A stretch of DNA of 64,000 nucleotides, taken from assembly GCF_010671595.1 (NCBI RefSeq), contig NZ_JAABOP010000002.1, positions 186,001-250,000 of the forward strand, written 5' to 3'. Position numbers and translations under genes: made by a program. The stretch's first letter is position 1; each line of letters opens with the position of its first letter. Below the pieces are notes generated by a model. That model was not told the origin of the DNA. It was given only the letters and a program-made list of their open reading frames with translations, and did no database searches. Below are positions 49,239 to 52,347 of the stretch, piece after piece. Source of the stretch: Muriicola jejuensis. GTDB lineage: Bacteria > Bacteroidota > Bacteroidia > Flavobacteriales > Flavobacteriaceae.

Positions 49239-51533
49239 ATGAGAATAACATTGTCAATATGGAGTATAATAATCCTCATTTTCACGGGGTGCGGCCCAAA
49301 ATATAGCCTGGAGGACAAAGGGAGCTTCACGCTGGTCAAAAATGAAAATGGGGTCGATCTGGGCTACTCTCCCCTGTCGGGAGTAACAATCCTAACACAA
49401 AATGGGCTTGCATTTAAGGACCTCAATAAAAATGGTTCTCTCGATGCATATGAGGATTGGAGGCTCTCAGCAGACCAGAGAGCCGGGGACCTCGCGGGCA
49501 GGATGAGTGTAGAAGAAATTGCTGGACTGATGCTGTATAGTGCACATCAGGCGATTCCGGCCGTTTCAGGGGGGTATTTTGGAGGAACTTATGAAGGTAA
49601 ACCCTTTGAGGAGAGCGGGGCTTCCCCCAGTGACCTCAATGATGCCCAGCTGAAATTCCTTACCGAAGACCACCTCAGACATGTCCTGATCACCAGCGTG
49701 CGCTCCCCAGGGATTGCTGCGGAGTGGAACAATAAGGCACAGGCCTATGTGGAAAAAATGGGACTGGGTATACCCGTAAATACGAGTTCTGACCCAAGGC
49801 ATGGAGCGGATTCCTACGCTGAATTCAACGCAGGTGCCGGGGGTGATATATCCAAGTGGCCGGGTACATTGGGTATTGCCGCTTCTTTTGATCCCGGACT
49901 GATGAAGAAATTTGGGGAGATCGCCTCCAAAGAATACAGGGCTTTGGGTATAGCTACTGCCCTTAGTCCCCAGATTGATTTGGGGACAGAACCCCGGTGG
50001 AGCCGATTCGACGGTACCATGGGCGAGGATCCAGACCTGGCCACGGATCTGGCCAGGGCCTATGTAGATGGATTCCAATCCTCCGATAACGGAGGCTGGG
50101 GCTTCCAAAGCGTCAATGCCATGGTAAAGCACTGGCCGGGAGGCGGACCTGAGGAAGGTGGAAGGGATGGCCATTTTGGGTACGGGGCATATGCCGTTTA
50201 CCCTGGGGGTAATCTCAAGGATCAAATGAAACCTTTCGTGGAAGGGGTATTTAAGTTGGAAGGCGAGACAGGGATGGCTTCAGCCGTAATGCCTTATTAC
50301 ACCATATCCTATGGACAGGATACTAAATACAAGGAGAATGTGGGTAATGGGTTCAGTAAATACCTTATCACCGATGTTCTCAGGGGCGAATACGGATACG
50401 ATGGTGTTATTTGCACGGACTGGGGCATTACTAGGGATGCCAGCAGTGTCGACTTGTTTGAAGGGAAGCCCTGGGGTGTAGAAGAACTTACCGTGGCAGA
50501 ACGCCATTACAAGGTAATTTTGGCCGGTGTGGATCAGTTTGGGGGAAACAATGACAAAGGCCCGGTACTGGAAGCCTATGCCATGGGAGTCTCCGAGTAT
50601 GGTGAAGAATTTATGCGGAAGCGATTCGAAGAATCCGCTGTCCGCCTTTTGAAAAATATCTTCAGAGTGGGGTTATTTGAAAATCCCTATCTCGAAGTAG
50701 ACGCAACCGAAAAACTGGTAGGCAATCCTGAATTCATGAAAGAAGGTTATCAGGCACAGCTTCGTTCTGTTGTTCTTTTAAAGAACCATAAAAAGGTCCT
50801 GCCGATAAAGAAAAAGCAAAGAGTTTATATACCCCGGAGGTATATCGCTCCAAGTACTAACTGGTTTGGGGTACAGCAACCGGAAAGAACTGTGGATCCC
50901 TTTAACCTGGAACTCGTCGGAAATTACTTCGAGGTGGTGGATACCCCGGAGAAGGCCGATTTTGCGCTGGTAGGGATAGAAAGCCCCAAGGGCGGGGTTG
51001 GATATGATCGTAGCGACCTGGCGAACGGTGGGAACGGGTATGTACCTATCAGTCTGCAATACGGACCATACACTGCCTTAGAGGCAAGAACAGAAAGCCT
51101 GGCCGGGGGTAGCCCCCTCGAGGATTTCGCAGACAGGAGCTATAAGGATAAGGAATTTACCTCTTACAATATTTCGGATATGGTGATGGTAAATAAAACT
51201 AAAGAGGAAATGGGGGACAAACCCGTCATCGTGGTAATCAACGTTAGCAACCCATTGGTATTCTCGGAGTTTGAAAAAAGTGCTGACGGGATCCTTGTCC
51301 ATATGGGCGTGCAGGATCAAGCACTCATGGACCTGATCAGTGGAGTGGCAGAACCTTCGGGCTTGCTTCCTTTTCAAATGCCCGCCGATATGGCTACTGT
51401 AGAACGCCAGTTCGAGGATGTGCCCAGGGACATGGAACCCTATACCGATCATGACGGAAATCAATACGATTTTGCTTTTGGATTGAACTGGCAGGGTATC
51501 ATTGCGGATGACAGGGTGGCGAAGTATAAGTGA
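49239..51533 (+). CDS. GH3 family beta-glucosidase lipoprotein
   Basis: 764 residues. Lipobox ~13-18 (LIFTGCGPK). The GH3 TIM barrel (~80-480) has the nucleophile Asp394 in GVICTDWGI and VKHWPGGGPEEGGRDGHFGYG; the sandwich domain (~510-760) includes SVVLLKNHKKVLPI. Expected to remove terminal beta-linked glucose outside the inner membrane, complementing the cytoplasmic GH3 at 31175. It lies about 2.7 kb past the phosphorylase gene, separated by unrelated genes on the other strand, so membership in the glucan locus is uncertain. Confidence 0.88.
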   Translation: MRITLSIWSIIILIFTGCGPKYSLEDKGSFTLVKNENGVDLGYSPLSGVTILTQNGLAFKDLNKNGSLDAYEDWRLSADQRAGDLAGRMSVEEIAGLMLYSAHQAIPAVSGGYFGGTYEGKPFEESGASPSDLNDAQLKFLTEDHLRHVLITSVRSPGIAAEWNNKAQAYVEKMGLGIPVNTSSDPRHGADSYAEFNAGAGGDISKWPGTLGIAASFDPGLMKKFGEIASKEYRALGIATALSPQIDLGTEPRWSRFDGTMGEDPDLATDLARAYVDGFQSSDNGGWGFQSVNAMVKHWPGGGPEEGGRDGHFGYGAYAVYPGGNLKDQMKPFVEGVFKLEGETGMASAVMPYYTISYGQDTKYKENVGNGFSKYLITDVLRGEYGYDGVICTDWGITRDASSVDLFEGKPWGVEELTVAERHYKVILAGVDQFGGNNDKGPVLEAYAMGVSEYGEEFMRKRFEESAVRLLKNIFRVGLFENPYLEVDATEKLVGNPEFMKEGYQAQLRSVVLLKNHKKVLPIKKKQRVYIPRRYIAPSTNWFGVQQPERTVDPFNLELVGNYFEVVDTPEKADFALVGIESPKGGVGYDRSDLANGGNGYVPISLQYGPYTALEARTESLAGGSPLEDFADRSYKDKEFTSYNISDMVMVNKTKEEMGDKPVIVVINVSNPLVFSEFEKSADGILVHMGVQDQALMDLISGVAEPSGLLPFQMPADMATVERQFEDVPRDMEPYTDHDGNQYDFAFGLNWQGIIADDRVAKYK

Positions 51534-51889
51534 TCACGCCAGGAGTACCTCGCTGCGCTCGGTTTTCCTTTGTGCTCCCGCCTGAAGATGCAAACCCAGC
51601 ACGGCCGCAGGCCGTGCGGTTTCCTTTTCCATTGCTCCTTACAAGAGCAAGCTCCTGACGGATCCATGAAAAAGAAAACCCCGCAACATTCGTTGCGGGG
51701 TTTGCGCTTTAAGTGACCGCGCCAGGATTAGTTCCTGATCCTTGCCTAAGACCCTCCTGCAAATAGAAGACCCAACAAAGCCCTCCGGCTTTGCGGTTCT
51801 TTTTTTGTCTCCGCCTTACGAAAGCGAGCTTTCGACGCCGGTTCCAAAAAAATAACCCCACGCTTTCGCGCGGGGTTTTCTGCTTGATG
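51534..51889 (-). repeat. Two tandem degenerate units: tRNA 3' tail plus terminator hairpin
   Basis: No gene. Read on the minus strand after the tRNA, there are two related units of about 180 nt (51713-51889 and ~51534-51712). Each has a GC-rich hairpin followed by T residues (CCCCGCGCGAAAGCGTGGGG; CCCCGCAACGAATGTTGCGGGG-like, split by its loop), a middle part with matching words (GTAAGG, AACCGCA, TGGGT), and an end resembling the tRNA-Arg 3' tail (TCCTGGCGCGGTCAC; TCCTGGCGTGATCAC). The hairpin next to the tRNA (~51857-51876) is probably its terminator. Confidence 0.7.
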
Positions 51890-51963
51890 TGACCACGCCA
51901 GGATTCAAACCTGGAACCTTCTGAGCCGTAATCAGATGCGCTATTCAGTTGCGCCACGTGGCC
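51890..51963 (-). tRNA. tRNA-Arg(ACG)
   Basis: A 74-nt cloverleaf. The acceptor strands GGCCACG and CGTGGTC pair with one G-U. The anticodon stem TCTGA/TCAGA encloses the loop TTACGGC, giving ACG. The T-arm contains GGTTTGAATCC-type sequence. The discriminator is A and CCA is not encoded. Its 5' 19 nt overlap the end of the GIY-YIG gene on the same strand. Confidence 0.95.
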
Positions 51964-52193
51964 GATTTAATATGTTCCCTTCCCTTGCCAGTTTTTAAAA
52001 ACTTTTCCCTTTCGAGAGCTTCCTCTTTTGTAGGATATGCTTCACAGAAAAGCAACTCCCATGGCAAATAGGGTTTTGTAGATTTGTTTTTTCCGCCGTT
52101 GTGTTGTCTCAACCTTCTGACGGGATTTCGGGAAAAACCTACATAGTGTCTATCAAAATTTAAACTCTTAAGAACGTACACATAATATTTCAT
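51945..52193 (-). CDS. Small GIY-YIG nuclease domain protein
   Basis: 82 residues, a stand-alone GIY-YIG domain of the UPF0213/YhbQ-like type: YYVYVLKS (GIY-equivalent), HYVGFSRNPVRRLRQHNGG (YIG-equivalent and the conserved Arg), and EALEREKFLKTGKGREH with the catalytic Glu region. The last codons (ATWRN and stop) are read through the 5' acceptor and D-arm of tRNA-Arg. A partial tRNA-Arg copy lies immediately upstream. The arrangement suggests a mobile cassette associated with the tRNA; whether the protein is made or cuts DNA is not shown. Confidence 0.8.
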   Translation of the reverse strand: MKYYVYVLKSLNFDRHYVGFSRNPVRRLRQHNGGKNKSTKPYLPWELLFCEAYPTKEEALEREKFLKTGKGREHIKSATWRN

Positions 52194-52199
52194 AAGCCT

Positions 52200-52268
52200 C
52201 AGATGCGCCCCGCCTCAGGCGGGCTAGTATTCAGCGCGTCCGCCTATGGCGGATTGCGCCACGTGGCC
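52200..52268 (-). pseudogene. 5' half of a tRNA-Arg interrupted by two 19-nt inserts
   Basis: On the minus strand the tRNA-Arg 5' part is recognisable in three blocks: 52254-52268, 52228-52234 and 52200-52208. All match the intact tRNA at 51890-51963. Two 19-nt inserts (52235-52253 and 52209-52227) split it, each containing a palindrome of the form CCGCC-N3-GGCGG. The copy ends in the anticodon stem, 6 nt before the GIY-YIG start codon, so it cannot form a tRNA. Confidence 0.75.
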
Positions 52269-52347
52269 GTAAATGTGTTCCCTCGTGAAAGGGCCTGCAA
52301 ATATATTTCTTTTTACTTTTAGGGCAAAATAACCTAAGGGCAATTCC

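Follow-up and report, generated by a model that had tools for sequence, protein, structure and literature searches.

The 64,000-nucleotide (nt) stretch of Muriicola jejuensis DNA analysed here (positions 186,001 to 250,000 of contig NZ_JAABOP010000002.1, hereafter the window) carries on its minus strand a small GIY-YIG nuclease gene lodged in a transfer RNA (tRNA) gene, tRNA-Arg(ACG). Together with its relatives across Bacteroidota, this gene looks like part of a widespread and apparently undescribed family of selfish elements that belongs with the homing endonucleases. We consider it likely that each unit is a minimal homing-type selfish element of about 300–390 bp, which lives inside tRNA genes and rebuilds them. 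We found no published description of a Bacteroidota GIY-YIG family at tRNAs, in a literature search whose reach excluded most subscription papers and preprints.

Read along the minus strand, the promoter is followed by a displaced 5′ fragment of tRNA-Arg(ACG), a GIY-YIG gene of 82 amino acids, a duplicated leader and an intact tRNA-Arg. The features of the locus are as follows.

52298..52305, minus strand: native tRNA promoter, −7 box TATATTTG, found from the sequence, which now precedes the displaced fragment and the nuclease gene.
52199..52268, minus strand: displaced native 5′ fragment of tRNA-Arg(ACG), nt 1–32, with two hairpins inside (sequence, and alignment with four other genomes carrying the same fragment).
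52239..52253, minus strand: hairpin 1, TCCGCCATAGGCGGA, perfect, in the D-loop after tRNA nt 15; stem the same in five genomes, loop variable.
52209..52223, minus strand: hairpin 2, CCCGCCTGAGGCGGG, perfect, near the end of the D-loop after about tRNA nt 22 (alignment; compensatory pair change in Maribacter).
51945..52193, minus strand: GIY-YIG nuclease gene of 82 amino acids, with its stop codon within the tRNA gene (Pfam PF01541).
51964..51979, minus strand: duplicated 16-nt tRNA leader GGGAACATATTAAATC, which also codes for the nuclease C-terminus (native copy GGGAACACATTTAC within 52269–52284).
51889..51963, minus strand: intact, restored tRNA-Arg(ACG) (ARAGORN; Rfam RF00005, 58.6 bits).
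51713..51743, minus strand: 3′ tail 1, a decayed copy of tRNA nt 44–75, followed by a terminator-like hairpin to about 51669; outside the GIY element.
51530..51544, minus strand: 3′ tail 2, a 15-nt copy of the tRNA 3′ end; outside the GIY element.

A sequence-only reading of the window had already described the order of 5′ tRNA-Arg part, GIY-YIG gene, intact tRNA and 3′ tails, and all of these parts were confirmed; the two hairpins in the 5′ copy and the 16-nt duplicated leader were absent from that description. It had also proposed that the 5′ end of the intact tRNA supplies the last codons of the nuclease, and indeed the 3′ end of the gene is tRNA nt 1–19, which encode part of a serine followed by A-T-W-R-N and the stop codon. 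The displaced fragment reads, in order, tRNA nt 1–15, TCCGCCATAGGCGGA, CTGAATA, CCCGCCTGAGGCGGG and GCGCATCTGA (nt 23–32), and is identical to the restored nt 1–32 except for the hairpins. The TATATTTG box at 52298–52305, which we take to be a −7 promoter box of the Bacteroidota type, is also found upstream of the tRNA at the empty Arg-ACG sites of four genomes of the genus (G002–G005). Since the short new leader of the rebuilt tRNA lacks an evident promoter box, transcription of this tRNA probably relies on read-through that starts at the native promoter and crosses the nuclease gene. At the window locus Rfam reported nothing but tRNA above threshold, with no match to a group I intron.

Empty sites, proposed as a check on the sequence-only reading, were found at syntenic loci within the genus Muriicola. 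At the Arg-ACG locus beside apt, G000 and G006 are full while G002, G003, G004 and G005 are empty, and the net insert of about 305 bp (versus G002) begins after tRNA nt 15, the exact start of hairpin 1. At the Leu-CAA locus, where the flanks are colinear, the site is full in G006 and cleanly empty in G000 and G004, with a shortened copy in G008, a scar made of the fragment and hairpin in G003 and an older scar in G002; measured against G000, the net insert amounts to about 318 bp and falls at tRNA nt 24. In the full Leu-CAA site the fragment retains the native promoter and the complete tRNA retains the native 3′ flank, and therefore the insertion took place inside the tRNA gene and not beside it. 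The earlier proposal that the nuclease carries tRNA sequence at both ends does not hold: the element lies within the tRNA gene, of which it restores a single part. A further locus, Arg-CCT, has two copies in G000, one full copy in G002, a scar in G006 and a remnant in G004. Empty, full, decaying and lost states at one locus in one genus are a hallmark of homing endonuclease genes. In Muriicola, presence and absence at a precise site are seen in related genomes at Arg-ACG and Leu-CAA, and a cycle of invasion, decay and loss at Leu-CAA and Arg-CCT.

The association of short GIY-YIG genes with tRNA genes was counted at scales from one genome to the phylum. Nine PF01541 genes are present in the Muriicola genome, five short and four long. 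Each of the short genes lies <500 bp from a tRNA (Arg(ACG), Arg(CCT) twice in tandem, Pro(GGG) and Asn), and none of the four long genes is near one. With 37 tRNAs in 3.31 Mb, sequence lying within 500 bp of a tRNA makes up only about 1.2% of the genome, so that five out of five is far beyond chance. A set of 40 relatives yielded 70 short GIY-YIG matches, of which 28 had a tRNA within 1 kb, in every case on the same strand; the corresponding figure for long GIY-YIG controls was 0 of 31. Two types can be told apart among the short proteins: one, hereafter T-type, ends in RExxLKxxxG(K/R)xxL or SRKYI and the second is UPF0213-like. T-type genes were found within 1 kb of a tRNA or a transfer-messenger RNA (tmRNA) in 112 of 147 cases in 120 family genomes (112/112 on the same strand) and in 36 of 40 cases in a phylum-wide set (36/36), giving 148 of 187 for both sets together (148/148). 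For the second type the figure is about 1 of 38, and the idea that all short GIY-YIG genes are involved was rejected, since the UPF0213-like genes of the same genomes lie away from tRNAs. As a control for strand, the nearest flanking protein genes were co-oriented in 78 of 160 cases; strand bias and controls led us to reject a chance or hot-spot association. The sequence-only reading had suggested a search for other short GIY-YIG genes ending inside tRNAs, and the association of short GIY-YIG genes with tRNAs turns out to be phylum-wide: with a strict cut-off the family is present in 142 of 296 Bacteroidota genomes, in up to 17 copies per genome, and recurs at about 20 kinds of tRNA gene. Three genomes (G373, G431 and G194) have 16–17 copies each, several tandem arrays among them, and are good candidates for recent activity.

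The elements come in two layouts. In layout A the order is 5′ fragment, nuclease, complete tRNA, and the hosts are Arg-ACG, Arg-TCG, Arg-CCT, Leu-CAA, Pro-GGG, Pro-TGG, Ala and others; the stop codon of the nuclease falls inside the tRNA in 26 of 42 layout A genes. In layout B a complete tRNA is followed by a terminator, the nuclease and a 3′ fragment, with Val, Met, Asn, Asp, Arg-TCT and others as hosts. Genes for tmRNA also serve as hosts. Tandem arrays of 2–5 or more units of nuclease and fragment occur, with a period of about 300–390 bp. In the case of tRNA-Pro(GGG), about four tandem 97-bp repeats lie between nuclease and tRNA (L004 1726–2098; L068 2262–2696) and are kept in two species of the genus, each repeat consisting of a D-arm, a hairpin replacing the anticodon arm and part of a T-arm. 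Displaced tRNA-Val copies with a hairpin in place of the anticodon arm are labelled as selenocysteine tRNA, tRNA-SeC(tca), by ARAGORN (L019, L048, L049), and a tRNA-SeC(tca) annotated in Bacteroidota may often be an artefact that this element has produced.

The 3′ tails of the window, which had been read as belonging to the arrangement, are independent of it: they are present in G002–G005, whose Arg-ACG sites are empty, and were rejected as part of the nuclease element. Repeats of tRNA-Arg 3′ tails and terminator-like hairpins downstream of the tRNA (window 51530–51743; L101–L104) were seen in all members of the genus checked, with or without the nuclease, and TCCCGATAGCTATCGGGA is present within the tail region in some cases (L100). 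These tails may be scars of older layout B invasions. When RNA targets other than tRNA were considered for the unassociated copies, Rfam gave tmRNA (L052) and weak tRNA-like copies, with no ribosomal or other RNA, and this explanation was dropped; ARAGORN gave five further tmRNA loci with a nuclease. At the tmRNA genes, repeated terminator-region copies come first and a nuclease of the same type follows downstream (L052, L181, L186, L188, L190, L191), and these nucleases form a tight group joined by one Val-labelled row. In one locus without a tRNA nearby (L171 1498–1743, G105:C5), the T-type GIY-YIG domain is found inside a 642-codon open frame, possibly a domesticated or fused form.

Hairpins are a recurrent feature of the displaced fragments. 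Across 86 loci with a clear displaced fragment, a perfect stem of at least 7 bp was present in 53 fragments, versus 6.1% of matched control windows and 19 of the 86 intact tRNAs; for stems of at least 6 bp the counts were 68 fragments, 16.8% of control windows and 33 intact tRNAs. The position of the hairpin is characteristic of the subfamily across genera, at nt 22 in Arg-TCG, Arg-CCT and Ala, 23 in most Leu, 14 in Asn of layout A, 50 in most Pro-TGG, 50–51 in most Asp and about 28 in Val (some mapped at 38). Scatter of position within groups was 190, compared to 385 after shuffling, and 0 of 5000 shuffles were as low. Hairpin sequences vary, though ends of the form TCCCG...CGGGA or CCTGCC...GGCAGG are often shared. 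In the subfamily of the window, stems are constant in five genomes and loops vary, while the Maribacter copy of hairpin 2 has one compensatory pair change (CCCGAC/GTCGGG). The exact palindrome CCCGATAGCTATCGGG is rare: it has three copies in G132, all in GIY arrays, and two in G018, the number found in its GIY array; the possibility that it is an ordinary high-copy repeat was rejected in most genomes (0–9 copies). In four genomes (G059, G093, G100, G125) 19–40 exact copies are spread well beyond nuclease loci. On the simplest reading, the hairpin would mark the junction between element and displaced tRNA and would disarm the displaced copy.

The nuclease itself is a member of the GIY-YIG family by both domain match (PF01541, E 1.3e-17, 64.2 bits with a cut-off of 22.6) and conserved catalytic residues (Y17, G19, R27, H31, E63 and K67, invariant along with A59 in an alignment of 20 relatives). 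The AlphaFold model of the 82-residue protein has a predicted local distance difference test (pLDDT) score of 92, and its nearest solved structures are the UPF0213 protein BH0048 (1zg2) and then SLX1 (7cq2), with a weaker match to I-TevI. SLX1 is a structure-specific DNA nuclease; the likeness is noteworthy, as it is in the arms of tRNA genes that the inserts are found. The ratio of nonsynonymous to synonymous substitution rates (dN/dS) for close pairs with measurable dS was 0.067 (window nuclease versus G006), 0.086 and 0.103, which indicates that the nuclease is under purifying selection; a near-identical pair within one genome (L019/L048) gave 0.69 on very few changes and carries little weight. 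On a nuclease tree of 129 sequences, built from few columns and with many unresolved forks, tRNA identity requires 37 changes versus a shuffled mean of 99.7 (0 of 200 shuffles as low). The nucleases at Pro-GGG, Leu-CAA, Arg-CCT and Arg-TCT each occupy one side of a branch, so the tree and tRNA identity agree that target specificity is inherited with the nuclease, as for homing endonucleases.

We propose that the small GIY-YIG nuclease would cut within the tRNA gene of an allele not yet invaded. For layout A the cut would probably fall in the D-loop, occasionally in a different arm, and for layout B it would lie mostly in the anticodon or T arm. Repair from the invaded allele would then copy in the nuclease gene along with a replacement for the part of the tRNA that would otherwise be lost. 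A layout A element would restore the 5′ part, leaving native promoter, displaced 5′ fragment, nuclease and complete tRNA, while a layout B element would restore the 3′ part and the terminator, leaving complete tRNA, nuclease and displaced 3′ fragment. The hairpin, at its subfamily-specific position in the tRNA, would correspond to the junction or the cut site, and the nuclease would be cotranscribed with the tRNA. The earlier suggestion of a homing-like element that inserts at tRNA genes while restoring them is supported by the empty sites and by the association across the phylum. Of this scheme, the anatomy, the empty and full alleles, the decay series, the match between nuclease clades and tRNA types and the purifying selection are observed, and DNA cleavage, copying through break repair, the role of the hairpin and cotranscription with the tRNA are inferred. 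A bolder version, which we regard as tentative and rather less likely than otherwise, is that these are a distinct class of mobile element in which an SLX1-like nuclease is guided by hairpin structure and not by long DNA sequence. Such an enzyme would read the arms of tRNA genes as DNA hairpins and cut their loops. The inserted hairpins would be an end belonging to the element itself, which the reaction makes or places and which is required for disarming the displaced copy.

Several observations weigh against a homing-type element. DNA cleavage by the nuclease is putative, and the site comparisons are between species and not between strains of one species. The restored tRNA and 16-nt leader are nearly identical to the empty site, which leaves no obvious change that could make the invaded allele self-immune. 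The displaced tRNA part is usually the same as the restored one, a pattern that local duplication would produce as readily as transfer from a foreign donor; and as the spare tRNA part matches the host's own, local duplication is indistinguishable from transfer within a species. Most known homing endonucleases have a separate DNA-binding domain, which is missing here. No close relative of the nuclease was found in phages or viral contigs, and the sole match in plasmids was a weak one to Bacillus yazA. About one fifth of T-type genes are without a recognisable tRNA nearby; several of these are located at contig ends or beside tRNA fragments.

Among other explanations, the one we take most seriously, while still judging it improbable, is local amplification, in which a SegB-like nuclease breaks DNA at tRNA genes and the break induces tandem duplication of tRNA and nuclease, possibly kept for protecting or boosting tRNA supply. 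Tandem arrays are common here, and SegB amplifies tRNA-Tyr together with segB via short homology of the 5′ end of the tRNA with the 3′ end of segB (PMC13096335), reminiscent of the overlap in the window. However, the extra tRNA copies are fragments, most of them disrupted by hairpins, and add no working tRNA, and the clean empty sites and single insertions across genera require an entry step beyond amplification. It is even less probable, in our estimate by a wide distance, that debris including small nuclease genes gathers passively at tRNA loci as hot spots of recombination and integration. That tRNA 3′ tails and terminator repeats collect here whether or not a nuclease is present would fit such a by-product, whereas the shared strand of 148 out of 148 genes, the absence of tRNAs beside 31 other GIY-YIG genes, the tRNA-specific clades, purifying selection and exact insertions with a restored tRNA would not.

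A toxin-antitoxin-like addiction module, in which the GIY-YIG protein would have tRNA as its substrate and the pseudo-tRNA with its hairpin would serve as decoy or antidote, is in our view very unlikely, if slightly less so than passive debris. Pseudo-tRNAs with swapped hairpins do keep a tRNA-like architecture, to the point that ARAGORN calls the Val copies tRNA-SeC, and the nuclease clades match tRNA identity. Yet the characterised GIY-YIG nucleases known to us act on DNA, the nearest folds (SLX1, I-TevI) are DNA nucleases, many fragments are too short for a tRNA fold, PADLOC gave no match, and insertion inside the tRNA gene is not something that a module of this kind predicts.

If the homing-type reading is right, one of the smallest known mobile elements is present in about half of the Bacteroidota genomes sampled, lodged inside essential tRNA genes of at least 20 kinds, and the gene-restoring homing of fungal mitochondria would extend to bacterial chromosomes and to RNA genes. 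Such an element would also account in part for oddities in many annotations, among them false calls of selenocysteine and stop tRNAs, truncated tRNAs, and GIY-YIG proteins with tRNA-encoded C-terminal peptides. The existence of empty and full alleles makes cleavage, self-immunity and the role of the hairpin directly testable with an enzyme of 82 residues.

Some features of this element can be found in known systems. Group I introns with homing endonucleases occur in tRNA anticodon loops, and they share with the present element a homing endonuclease in a tRNA gene whose function is kept. (For bacterial group I introns in general, see PMC3984707.) The difference is that here there is no intron and no splicing, the tRNA being rebuilt as uninterrupted DNA; at the window locus Rfam detected no intron core in the insert. 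Integrase-type elements that integrate at tRNAs are also a poor fit, as the inserts of about 305–318 bp hold the GIY-YIG gene alone. UPF0213/YhbQ- and SLX1-type GIY-YIG proteins have the same fold (1zg2 and 7cq2 being the best structural matches), but the UPF0213-like short genes of the same genomes end in ...KQLKxWxRxxK...NPxWxDL and lie away from tRNAs. At E. coli tyrT, 178-bp repeats each have a tRNA 3′ end. These are of similar length and resemble the two tails in the window, and differ in having no nuclease; the window tails, too, are independent of the nuclease.

A closer parallel is SegB of T-even phages, a free-standing GIY-YIG homing endonuclease that likewise lies beside tRNA genes, makes breaks within them and forms tandem repeats of tRNA and nuclease (PMC13096335, PMC2988022). 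Free-standing GIY-YIG enzymes are typically inefficient at cutting the donor allele (PMC13096335). SegB, however, is a phage gene inserted between tRNA genes, whereas the present nucleases are chromosomal, sit inside a tRNA gene with a displaced fragment, are specialised by tRNA type and have 78–97 amino acids. The mobile open reading frames (mORFs) of fungal mitochondria are known from Allomyces macrogynus atp6 and from atp6, atp9, cox2 and nad3 of Glomus (PMC3630166). As in our element, an endonuclease gene (GIY-YIG in Glomus atp9) enters an essential gene carrying a replacement part, and the displaced native part stays adjacent; a replacement copy of the displaced part is indeed found beside the nuclease here. 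The mORFs reside in mitochondrial protein genes, are mostly LAGLIDADG and bring diverged foreign C-termini, while in the window the replacement is not clearly foreign, the two copies of nt 1–32 being identical apart from the hairpins. What sets the present family apart is its residence in tRNA genes of bacterial chromosomes, where either end can be restored by a replacement near-identical to the native part and a hairpin is left in the displaced fragments.

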